This document shows, piece after piece, positions 4,721 to 7,279 of a stretch of 7,468 bases of DNA. The position numbers were made by a program, and so were the translations under genes. Numbering within the stretch: position 1 is the stretch's first letter; each line of letters begins with the position of its first letter. The notes under the pieces were generated by a model. The model saw only the letters and a program-made list of their open reading frames with translations. It was not told the origin of the DNA and did not search any database. Origin of the DNA: Alphaproteobacteria bacterium (GTDB taxonomy: Bacteria; Pseudomonadota; Alphaproteobacteria; UBA9219); the NCBI GenBank assembly GCA_028716765.1, contig JAQUPC010000106.1:1-7468 (forward strand). Reading direction: 5' to 3'.

Positions 4721-4750
4721 ATGATACAAGCTTTCCGGACAGGTTGCCAT
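4721..4750 (-). promoter_or_regulatory. Possible grpE promoter
   Basis: On the minus strand ATGGCA (4750-4745) and TATCAT (4726-4721) are separated by 18 bases. The match to sigma-70 is four of six and five of six. Transcription would start about 14 bases before the ATG, just ahead of the GGAAG ribosome site. A sigma-32 site as good as that of dnaK was not found here. Confidence 0.35.
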
Positions 4751-4807: not shown

Positions 4808-5881
4808 ATGTCTAAAAACGCTCCCCCGGCCTTTAACACCATCGGCGTCATCGTGGGGCTCGACCTCGTCGGCGACGCGCTTATCAAGCTGCCGTTTCTC
4901 CGCGCGCTGCGCTCGGCTTTTCCCGAAGCTGAAATCCACTGGATTGCCAGCAAGGGGCCGACAGCCTATAACGGCCCTCTCCGCGAAGTGACGCAGCATT
5001 TGATAGACGTCATTCATGAAGAGCCGGTTTGGATGCCGGAACAAGAGGTACGGGGTGCGGGGTACGGGGTACGGGAAATAAAAAAAGTACTTAACCCGTT
5101 TCCCGTATCCCGTATCCCGTGTCCCGTGTCCCGTTTCGACATCCTCATCGACACCCGCAACCGCTGGGGCGAAGCACGGCTTGTCCGCAAAGGCGTTCCC
5201 CACGGATTGTTTCTTGCGCCCGCCGCGCGCTATCTCGCATCGGATCGCCGCCCCTTCCTGTTTAAGGCGCGCCCGGCGCATCTTGTGGACAGGCTGCTGC
5301 AGCTGGTTGAACTTGCGGCGGGACAGGTTCCTTCGACGACGGGCCGCCTGCCCGTCTCCGATGTCCTTCTCGCCAAGGCAAAGCAGCTGTTGCCCAAAGG
5401 AAAGATTTATGTCGGCCTTGCGCCGGGGGCCGGGAATCCTGTCAAAATCTGGCCGCGCGAGCGTTTCATCGAACTCGCTGCGCTTCAGGCCGCGGAAGGC
5501 CGCGTTCCCGTTTTTCTTCTCGGGCCGCAGGAAGCGGAATGGTTGCCTGATCTTAAAGAGGCCGTGCCTTCCGCCCTGTTTCCGCTTCAGGCCCGAAAGG
5601 TTTGGGGAACGCCGGACATCAGCATCGAGGAAACGCTGGCCACCGGAAGTTTGCTAAACATAGCCGTCGCCAACGACAGCGGAACCGGCCACATGCTGGC
5701 CGCCGTGGATTGCCCGCTCATCAGCCTCTTCGGACCGACCTCGCCCGCCAAGCTGGCGCCGCGCGTAAGCCGGGGCATTGTTGTCCAGGCGCAGGATTTC
5801 GGCGGCGAAGCCATGGACGCCATACCGGTTGCAAGCGTGAACGAAGCCGTGAGAAATCAGATAGCCGCGGCCAAGGGTTGA
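4808..5881 (+). CDS. Glycosyltransferase family 9 (heptosyltransferase-like), with an in-frame repeat insertion
   Basis: The 357-residue product has the two-domain layout of ADP-heptose:LPS heptosyltransferases (GT-B fold). The N-terminal domain has the Gly-Asp-Ala-Leu acceptor-side motif (GDALIKLPFLRALR, 22-35). The C-terminal domain has the nucleotide-sugar side: LAPGAGNPVKIWP (204-216), then NDSGTGHMLAA (289-299) and LFGPTSPAKLAP (307-318). Members transfer heptose or a related sugar to lipid A core at the inner membrane; the exact acceptor is not readable. Residues about 81-109 are encoded by a palindromic heptamer repeat, lie in a variable linker before FDILIDTRNRW, and are not typical of the family. 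The ATG at 4808 is chosen because family homology begins right after it. An in-frame ATG at 4721 would add a Phe-rich tail running almost into grpE. Neither start has a good ribosome site. The 3' end overlaps the convergent minus-strand gene by 25 bases. Confidence 0.92.
   Translation: MSKNAPPAFNTIGVIVGLDLVGDALIKLPFLRALRSAFPEAEIHWIASKGPTAYNGPLREVTQHLIDVIHEEPVWMPEQEVRGAGYGVREIKKVLNPFPVSRIPCPVSRFDILIDTRNRWGEARLVRKGVPHGLFLAPAARYLASDRRPFLFKARPAHLVDRLLQLVELAAGQVPSTTGRLPVSDVLLAKAKQLLPKGKIYVGLAPGAGNPVKIWPRERFIELAALQAAEGRVPVFLLGPQEAEWLPDLKEAVPSALFPLQARKVWGTPDISIEETLATGSLLNIAVANDSGTGHMLAAVDCPLISLFGPTSPAKLAPRVSRGIVVQAQDFGGEAMDAIPVASVNEAVRNQIAAAKG
5048..5136 (+). repeat. Palindromic heptamer-repeat element inserted in frame in the glycosyltransferase gene
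   Basis: The left arm (5048-5075) is four tandem heptamers GTRCGGG: GTACGGG, GTGCGGG, GTACGGG, GTACGGG. The right arm (5095-5136) is six heptamers CCCGTNT: TTT-, TAT-, TAT-, TGT-, TGT- and TTT-ending units. In the sense RNA positions 5048-5078 pair with 5129-5099 as an unbroken 31-bp stem, seven of the pairs being G-U, with an A-rich loop of about 20 bases. It encodes about 30 residues (VRGAGYG... to ...IPCPVSR) in the only forward frame without a stop. The span is about 90 bases, so the gene frame is kept. Coding genes rarely hold such a structure. It looks like a mobile or expanding palindromic repeat similar in habit to Rickettsia palindromic elements. No second copy is in the window. Confidence 0.9.
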
Positions 5882-7095
5882 GGGCGGCGTACGCCGGGGA
5901 TAGCCCACGCTTCCCGTTGCGGCGAATGTTTTCCCGGAGGAATAGGGCGCGACACCGATTCCAGAAAGTACGTTTTTTCTTCAATATTAAATGCAAGTTT
6001 TCTTATCGCCTTGTCCTTAAGCGTACATTCCGTAAGTTCGTCTATAGCTTCGGACACAACGGGAATCATGCCCCGGATGACCCGGAAGCGCTCTACACGT
6101 TCCTGTTCGATCATGGAGGGGTCTATAAGTCCTTGCCCATCATAATCAAGATTTTTCCAGGGCCCCGTCATGGCACCATTAAAACCCGGATCGCCAACAA
6201 GATGGATTATCCTGCCCGGACCCGGCCGTTCTTGACAGCGCCTTTCCCATAATTTGCACAACATCTCATCAAATTGAGGACGTTCGTTAACGGGGGAACA
6301 AACGAAGACGGCATTGGCTTTGAACAAGGTCTCGTATTGATAAAGGCTTTTCTCTTCCGGAACAATGGAAAGAGCCGCTTTCATGTCCAAATTATTCAAA
6401 CCGTTTTGGAGCGACGGAAAGTCGGACCAATTCACAGGCGTCAGAATGATGTTTCCCGGCGTATTTCTTTTTTTATGGCCGAGCGCGCCGATAAGATCGC
6501 GCGTGAGTTGGCTGTCGCCGCCGAAGACAAGGGCCGTGTGTTTCGGCGACATGCGAGCGAGTTCTATAGCAACTTTTATTTTTTCCGGACGCTTCAGCAA
6601 GAAAGAAGGAAGCGCCTCTCTTATTCTCCGCCCATCCCGAAAAACCGTTTGCATGTAAGCGGCCAAATCTTTTTGAAGATAACCACCGCTCTTATATCTT
6701 CTTAAAGCAACTTTCATCTGGGACATTATGTTGTCTTCAAATGAATGCTTCCGGCTTTTCAGGCCGCAAAAAAATTCTACGAGAAATTTGTGAGCCGCAG
6801 GACCACGATGCAAAAAGGTGCTCTCGTCGCGAAAAACATGATCAAGTAGTTTATGGAATTGCAAAGAAGGCTTACAGGAGCCGGGTTGTCCCGGGCCTTT
6901 GTTTTCCCGTTTCTTGTTCCCGGGAAATCCCGGATAATCTTCGGGAAATTGTTCGGCTAAGCAAACATAGGTGTGGCGCGAGCAAGTTTCGATGGCTAAA
7001 AATCCATTTTCCTCAAATGTCTTCCATTTCCACCCCGATCTTTCGGGAAGTGATGCTCTCGTTTCCAAAACAATGAGACGATTCATATCCAACAT
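5857..7095 (-). CDS. Hypothetical protein of about 412 residues, family not recognised
   Basis: This is a long open frame on the minus strand in a region visibly richer in A and T than the chaperone genes. I do not recognise a family. The protein looks soluble: no signal peptide or membrane segment. The N-terminus MNRLIVLETRASL looks like a first beta strand. Residues about 55-73 are a Gly/Pro/Lys-rich linker (PGFPGNKKRENKGPGQPG). About 115-170 are helical and basic. About 173-300 alternate strands and helices (KVAIELARM, TALVFGGDS, GNIILTPVNW, ANAVFVCSPV, GRIIHLVGDPG), which suggests an alpha/beta Rossmann-like core, though no catalytic motif is clear. ATG at 7095 has GGGTG six bases upstream; GTG at 7104 and ATG at 7086 are alternatives. 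The last eight or so residues overlap the end of the glycosyltransferase gene. The 184-base gap upstream (7096-7279) has no clear promoter or terminator, only weak AT-rich inverted repeats. Confidence 0.75.
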   Translation of the reverse strand: MLDMNRLIVLETRASLPERSGWKWKTFEENGFLAIETCSRHTYVCLAEQFPEDYPGFPGNKKRENKGPGQPGSCKPSLQFHKLLDHVFRDESTFLHRGPAAHKFLVEFFCGLKSRKHSFEDNIMSQMKVALRRYKSGGYLQKDLAAYMQTVFRDGRRIREALPSFLLKRPEKIKVAIELARMSPKHTALVFGGDSQLTRDLIGALGHKKRNTPGNIILTPVNWSDFPSLQNGLNNLDMKAALSIVPEEKSLYQYETLFKANAVFVCSPVNERPQFDEMLCKLWERRCQERPGPGRIIHLVGDPGFNGAMTGPWKNLDYDGQGLIDPSMIEQERVERFRVIRGMIPVVSEAIDELTECTLKDKAIRKLAFNIEEKTYFLESVSRPIPPGKHSPQREAWAIPGVRRPQPLAAAI

Positions 7096-7279
7096 AGCAA
7101 ACACCCACTAAAAAATTATGGGTAAAGCTAAGAGATTCGCTGAAAGGAAGTAAAGTTAAGAAACGCCTTAAAATACTTTCATGGAAACTTTTTTAGCGGC
7201 TGAGACGAAATAACACGAGGGCAGCCCCACAACGATTCGCAATCCTATATCTGGCTTGTGCGAAGATTTTCCCGGCCGG

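Follow-up and report, generated by a model that had tools for sequence, protein, structure and literature searches.

A heptamer palindrome within a glycosyltransferase gene

The genes and frames of the window (the whole stretch of 7,468 nucleotides that was analysed) are, in order, a dnaJ-like frame (a name based on its translation), a NUDIX gene, dnaK, a small frame with no Pfam match, grpE, a glycosyltransferase family 9 (GT9) gene and then one that matches GlutR_N weakly. An Rfam scan of the window gave no matches and a tRNA scan of it found none. The open frame of the GT9 gene begins at 4721, and the ATG at 4808, chosen by alignment, was taken as its start. Within this gene lies a palindromic element with a total length of 89 bp (5048-5136). 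The features concerned are as follows.

4808..5881, + strand: GT9 gene (Pfam PF01075), in which the element forms residues 81-110
5047..5131, + strand: predicted RNA hairpin of the coding strand, 33 pairs
5048..5075, + strand: left arm, four G-rich heptamers (GTACGGG, GTGCGGG, GTACGGG and GTACGGG)
5076..5094, + strand: A-rich centre AAATAAAAAAAGTACTTAA, 19 bases, 89% A+T
5095..5136, + strand: right arm, six CCCGTNT heptamers, C-rich and oriented towards the left arm

On the + strand of the window, GTRCGGG occurs at positions 5048, 5055, 5062 and 5069 only. The units of the right arm begin at 5095, 5102, 5109, 5116, 5123 and 5130, and five further single copies of CCCGTNT are scattered through the window. 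Both arms were recovered as period 7 arrays by TRF. Rotated so that G comes first, the units read GGGGTAC, GGGGTGC, GGGATAC, GGGACAC and GGGAAAC. A sequence-only reading had described four GTRCGGG and six CCCGTNT units around an A-rich centre, and its units, coordinates and frame were found to be correct. It had also claimed that one forward frame of the element is free of stops and that GT9 uses it. This is the case (one of three forward frames), with the addition that the reverse strand has two open frames out of three.

RNA of the coding strand is predicted to fold into a single hairpin of -56.2 kcal/mol (z -6.7) whose 33 pairs include 7 G-U, and that of the opposite strand folds more weakly (-44.1 kcal/mol, z -3.9). 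Arm mismatches on the coding strand of the window element comprise 8 G-U against 1 A-C. However, over 35 elements (see below) the corresponding counts are 64 and 47, with no clear overall bias. Selection for a hairpin in the mRNA thus leaves no general signature, and it was dropped as an explanation.

The frame that follows GT9 (415 aa, window 5857-7104, - strand) matches GlutR_N, the N-terminal domain of glutamyl-tRNA reductase, at 31.9 bits, a weak score against the cut-off of 27, and looks like a divergent hemA product. Positions 6881-6949, within this frame, contain short repeats (CCCGG/CGGGAAAT) and an imperfect inverted repeat of 15 nt. The repeats there are not heptameric, and the stretch may be a second in-frame palindrome, of a different kind.

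In-frame insertion in GT9 and other protein genes

Alignment with GT9 orthologues revealed that most homologues have a much shorter linker at this point and that the insert is not universal. One measurement puts the linker at 40 aa in the window GT9 and at 15-24 aa in 11 distinct relatives, so that the net gain is about 16-25 residues. The earlier estimate of roughly 30 residues added in frame therefore holds for the span of the element but overstates the gain in length. Linkers could be measured in 110 of the 120 homologues listed, with a median of 18 aa and a length of at least 33 aa in 12 of them (37 aa in P0001). P0001, an orthologue with 94% identity, is of equal length and carries the same insert. 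That the insert is just an ordinary linker of low complexity, or that it arose in assembly, is scarcely credible, even though the length of the GT9 linker varies across homologues: P0001 is a separately sourced sequence whose copy has acquired substitutions, and 2000 first-order Markov windows yielded four comparable arrays and no facing inverted pairs. Substitutions between the two proteins fall at 4/30 positions of the insert and 17/327 of the remainder; with p = 0.09, faster change within the insert than outside it is not claimed. In an AlphaFold2 model (mean pLDDT 88.2) residues 81-93 and 95-102 score below 50, and in this predicted structure the insert is an unstructured, flexible loop.

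Linker peptides were also scored, against 60 shuffles each, for whether facing arrays of a single heptamer could encode them. The set comprised the window GT9 and the 20 longest of the 110 measured linkers. Ten of these 21 linkers beat all 60 shuffles and 11 did not, and all four positive controls passed. The passing linkers were those of the window, P0001, P0003, P0010, P0011, P0014, P0024, P0037, P0041 and P0042, of which the weakest were P0010 (rich in proline and with an elevated null) and P0042 (10, with the null reaching 9). The same GT9 linker has probably been struck more than once, a reading based on peptide sequences.

The nearest GT9 genes come from non-rickettsial metagenome-assembled genomes with titles such as Alphaproteobacteria, Rhodospirillaceae and Micavibrio. 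Many of these belong to one order, from which 33 genomes were examined. One of them, G015, has in-frame palindromes in ubiE (one), plsC (one) and hemW (two), genes identified by conserved motifs in their translations and by alignment. The plsC palindrome is absent from all 28 other genomes compared. That of ubiE is absent from the 27 others aligned (29 fetched), several of which have somewhat longer linkers. For hemW, 30 loci were fetched, a motif filter removed 4, and 25 others entered the alignment; the first site is empty in 25/25 of them and the second in 23/25. Since most GT9 orthologues lack the insert, the 94% orthologue has it and there are these four further in-frame cases in G015, in-frame insertion by a palindromic repeat, as the sequence-only reading had proposed, is supported by the sequences compared.

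A closer inspection of hemW showed different inserts at the loop of the second G015 site in two other genomes, at L233 (G016) and L234 (G027), the latter coding for SPLPPQGGEG. A further different insert, SSSRGAQRRGDP..., lies downstream of the second-site loop at L258 (G034). As the hemW inserts differ across genomes, several kinds of repeat may settle in frame in this gene.

Palindromes and IVP genes with arms of the same design

The window unit was sought in several collections. It was found in none of 385 other genomes of the class when up to 2 mismatches were tolerated in 24 bases. A search of 11 genomes reached via loci, tolerating up to 3 mismatches in 17 bases, yielded scattered sites, and a reversed control yielded more. 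The exact 17-mer occurs in 13 viral stretches, none of which the detector scored as a facing pair. No other facing pair of the exact window unit was found among these class genomes, loci-linked genomes and viral stretches. Plasmids and phages gave partial matches to the element, mostly to a single arm, in 33 and 2 records respectively (best plasmid E-value 9e-8, at a limit of 10). A search for the inserted peptide, which scored 4 candidate proteins of similar length, recovered the 94% orthologue alone. Unpaired CCCGTGT / CCCGTTT arrays that resemble the right arm of the window element occur at L001:2959-3046 (Paroceanicella) and L002:2996-3044 (Vibrio).

Palindromes of the same design recur within the order with many different units. 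Matches to a loose pattern, four G-triplets with spacing, were present in 24/33 genomes, often as facing pairs; poly-G runs make up part of them. From loci fetched around such sites, and from others fetched for different reasons, 36 distinct facing period-7 pairs were collected: the window element and 35 from related genomes, 19 of the 36 coming from G015. These ORF-less palindromes are referred to as solos. The pair finder is blind to polarity, yet the G-rich arm comes first in 36/36, so that the G-strand points inward. In a looser scan of G-triplet arrays, those less than 100 bases apart were ordered G-then-C in 23 cases and C-then-G in none; at 100-600 bases apart the counts were 8 and 3. 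Among 76 mixed loci, facing pairs numbered five at period 7 (one listed twice) and one each at periods 6, 8 and 9. In 124 kb of G015 chosen regardless of repeats there were three pairs of period 7, two of period 8 and none at periods 4-6 or 9-12. By a rough ORF call, 5 of the 36 lie in genes, 20 in gaps between tandem genes, 7 in convergent and 3 in divergent gaps, and 1 at an edge; many abut the neighbouring frames. Two palindromes overlap the ends of frames named from their translations, L180:2746-2868 the start of a pflA-like frame and L003:4487-4573 the end of a xerC-like frame, and these palindromes possibly add residues at the protein ends.

One way to obtain such arrays with no mobile element would be replication slippage in steps of seven bases with fold-back in place, or retention of the arrays for a DNA or RNA structure such as a G-quadruplex. 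Slippage has been proposed for the abundance of heptamers, and G-quadruplexes have been described in vitro for Xanthomonas and Nostoc repeats, in the account of PMC4692102. A few of the elements do have mirrored arms (L003:4487), and 400 kb of G022 contained unpaired arrays of periods 6, 9 and 12 besides its one facing pair, of period 7. However, this origin appears improbable. One genome repeats one unit at many unrelated sites; the units of G015 include GGGACTG/A, GGCGTTA, AGTAGTG, GTAATCA/GAAGTCA and GGTTACA types. Orthologous sites are mostly empty, and the G-U and A-C counts given above show no clear bias. Mirroring of one arm by the other is not significant once arms are trimmed, as 58/1000 permutations reach the observed value over 28 elements. 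Fold-back copying of arm into arm, which had looked strong in a first test, was discarded when the signal lost significance with this edge trimming. The G-quadruplex was likewise rejected as a general reason, because units without a G-run (AGTAGTG, GCATTTA and GTAATCA) keep the same design.

Two facing pairs have centres of about 390 bp that enclose frames of the 23S rRNA intervening-sequence protein (IVP, S23p, PF05635), a four-helix bundle; one is Pfam-confirmed and both are among the family matches. The order holds 18 IVP matches, in 11/33 genomes (one of them in G015), and 17 of these loci were used, one being cut by a contig end. A strict detector found inverted period-7 arrays on both sides of 10/17 IVP genes and 0/97 control genes, 4 of the controls having a one-sided array (gene ends were set at locus length minus 1500). 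The inverted-flank score exceeded the maximum of the 97 controls in 16/17 order loci and equalled it in the remaining one. Of those 16, 14 had a best period of 7, and the other two had 8 and 10.

Three further samples were drawn. Plasmids gave 26 matching records, from which 17 loci were fetched, mostly cyanobacterial; 14/17 exceeded 100 shuffles, with period 7 in 13 and period 8 in 1. Viral contigs held 19 IVP loci, of which 4 were set aside as presumed duplicates, and 12 of the 15 examined exceeded 60 shuffles (period 7 in 10, period 8 in 2). Within the Pseudomonadota, 62/398 genomes had an IVP match, and among 29 new loci taken from high-scoring matches 23 exceeded 60 shuffles (period 7 in 21, period 8 in 2). 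Pooling the four samples, 65/78 IVP loci have inverted flanks above their own control and 13/78 do not, where about one chance pass in 78 is expected at 60 to 100 shuffles per locus; the 78 are not independent trials, owing to related genomes, near-copies (L407/L408; L385/L386) and a choice of mostly best-scoring loci. Among the 65, the period is 7 in 58 and 8 in 6, and the G-strand points inward in 64. Under the strictest control, a score above 13.6 (the top of the 97 control genes), 61/78 loci remain. Arms of the same design as those of the window element bracket PF05635 genes, and this is the main new result, which the earlier reading did not foresee.

Period 8 is the sole other period to recur at IVP genes (L347, L364, L374, L384, L400 and L414). 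In CRISPR operons of three cyanobacterial plasmids an IVP gene sits between cas6 and cas4 twice and between cas10 and cmr3 once (L354, L362 and L364); the flanks of L362 are not above shuffles. Avd proteins of diversity-generating retroelements are related to the IVP family in fold, and the bAvd model here scored only 20.9 bits (cut-off 40). Relatives of the IVP family in the PDB are 2gsc (XCC0516) and 2rld, a third and weak match being a coiled coil. The S23p of Xanthomonas is described as a toroidal homopentamer (PMC4990558), which was taken to be 2gsc.

Solos and IVP elements of one genome appear to share their units. In genomes with an IVP element, 30 solos were compared with the left arms of 15/17 IVP loci, and their match to the arms of their own genome scored 371.5 against 203 +/- 22 for random draws, a value reached in 0/5000 draws; the test is weakened by the fact that most solos were gathered via a GGG-based pattern, which biases the units. 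The best match lay in the solo's own genome for 15/30, two of these being ties. Cases outside the G-triplet bias are GCATTTA (G009), the CAGG-AT types (G001) and GGATCTA (G008). Several solos of G015 (AGTAGTG and GGCGTTA units) are unmatched by the sole IVP element found in that genome. With these caveats, the sharing of units within a genome is shown by the sequences compared.

The palindromes might instead form an independent MITE-like family, comparable to the Rickettsia palindromic elements (RPE), into which IVP genes have merely moved. In-frame insertion in exposed parts of conserved proteins is given as a hallmark of RPE in PMC2229807 and PMC3767692, and solos outnumber IVP elements, G015 having one IVP match and 19 solos. 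Against this, arms of this period and polarity flank IVP genes in each of the four samples. Moreover, G015 solos that share one unit have centres that are dissimilar by eye, which is unlike plain copy-paste. An independent family of this kind is therefore unlikely, if the strongest of the alternatives.

Scars of DNA breaks were also considered, in which a templated polymerase would extend both 3' ends with a G-rich heptamer before they are joined, much as in head-to-head telomere fusions. Such scars would account for the G-strand being inward in all 36 solos, for common units without common centres and for a period of 7 or 8 whatever the sequence. However, end extension alone does not explain the frequent IVP filler, and as a full account of these palindromes the proposal is very improbable.

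Relation to known elements and proposed origin

Inverted G-rich heptamers have been described before. Rehm et al. (2015, PMC4692102) report GGGAATC in Xanthomonas and GGGGA[C/T]T in Nostoc, mostly as four units; convergent pairs of arrays number 70 and 75 in two Xanthomonas genomes. Those repeats are dispersed, and 11% and 7% lie at least partly in genes; their role is left open there, with G-quadruplexes stressed. Tandem G-rich heptamers in a convergent pair are common to these repeats and the window element. However, the Xanthomonas unit (GGGAATC or GGGANTN) differs from the window units, several units of the present class cannot form the G-quadruplexes that PMC4692102 stresses, and the excerpted text of that paper describes neither in-frame insertion with empty orthologues nor a link to IVP.

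For the IVP side, Warrier et al. (2016, PMC4990558) describe a 23S intervening sequence in Coxiella with an S23p/IVP ORF inside an inverted-repeat stem, an element that they term selfish, and present S23p/IVP proteins as having no known function. Three tandem heptamers (GACAGAT) lie just upstream of the Coxiella S23p ORF, which agrees with the link between arms and IVP. Searches of open-licence PMC papers turned up none that links heptamer palindromes in general to IVP genes. The inverted period-7 (or 8) arms and inward G-strand of IVP elements are found in the window element too. In contrast, IVP elements carry a PF05635 ORF, and the window element has a 19-base centre with no IVP remnant; 23S intervening sequences sit in rRNA, and the window element in a coding frame.

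RPE, as set out in PMC2229807 and PMC3767692, are families of palindromes of 105-146 bp that lie in frame in solvent-exposed parts of conserved protein genes in Rickettsia, with relatives in Wolbachia. Like them, the window element is in frame in a conserved gene and absent from most orthologues. At 89 bp and with non-rickettsial relatives, however, it falls outside the size and hosts given for RPE (PMC2229807), and RPE as described in the two papers are not heptamer arrays. It is likely a family apart, distinguished by its anatomy and host. The P6b stem of the Nostoc trnL intron (PMC4476775) is a hairpin made of one of two 7-base motifs that have repeatedly replaced each other; it resembles the window element, by description, in its 7-base hairpin, but sits in the intron of a tRNA gene.

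The presence of such arms around IVP genes changes the probable identity of the window element, which is most likely an ORF-less (solo) relative of the heptamer-armed IVP elements, tolerated in frame. The arms of this putative class would be facing heptamer arrays with the G-rich strand inward, and its fuller members would hold an IVP gene between them. Solos would derive from IVP elements or spread by the same process. By such an event the window copy may have arrived in the GT9 linker, which tolerates changes in length, in the sole stop-free forward frame, where it would be translated as a flexible loop. An open frame together with a tolerant linker would have allowed it to persist, and the insert would predate the divergence of the window sequence and its 94% orthologue, having been retained ever since. 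Arms appear to be made from a common heptamer rather than by copying of whole elements, as units shared between elements with differing centres, and arms that are not clear mirrors, fit the former better.

A wider proposal, whose chances we consider evenly balanced, is that these elements represent a widespread and unrecognised class defined by the period (7, sometimes 8) and polarity of its arms and not by their sequence. The full form would carry IVP, 23S intervening sequences would be a special case, and the ORF-less forms would be the inverted heptamer repeats of bacteria, able to settle in frame, with arms built from a per-genome heptamer by templated or IVP-guided end extension.

The in-frame cases indicate that protein genes outside Rickettsia absorb such palindromes too, probably repeatedly at the same loop. 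This bears on the origin of new loops and on the share of annotated linkers that are relics of mobile DNA. The window element may also shed light on the spread of such elements and on their tolerance by genes. If heptamer repeats and IVP are one element, both the function of IVP and the role of the repeats would become testable in laboratory strains.
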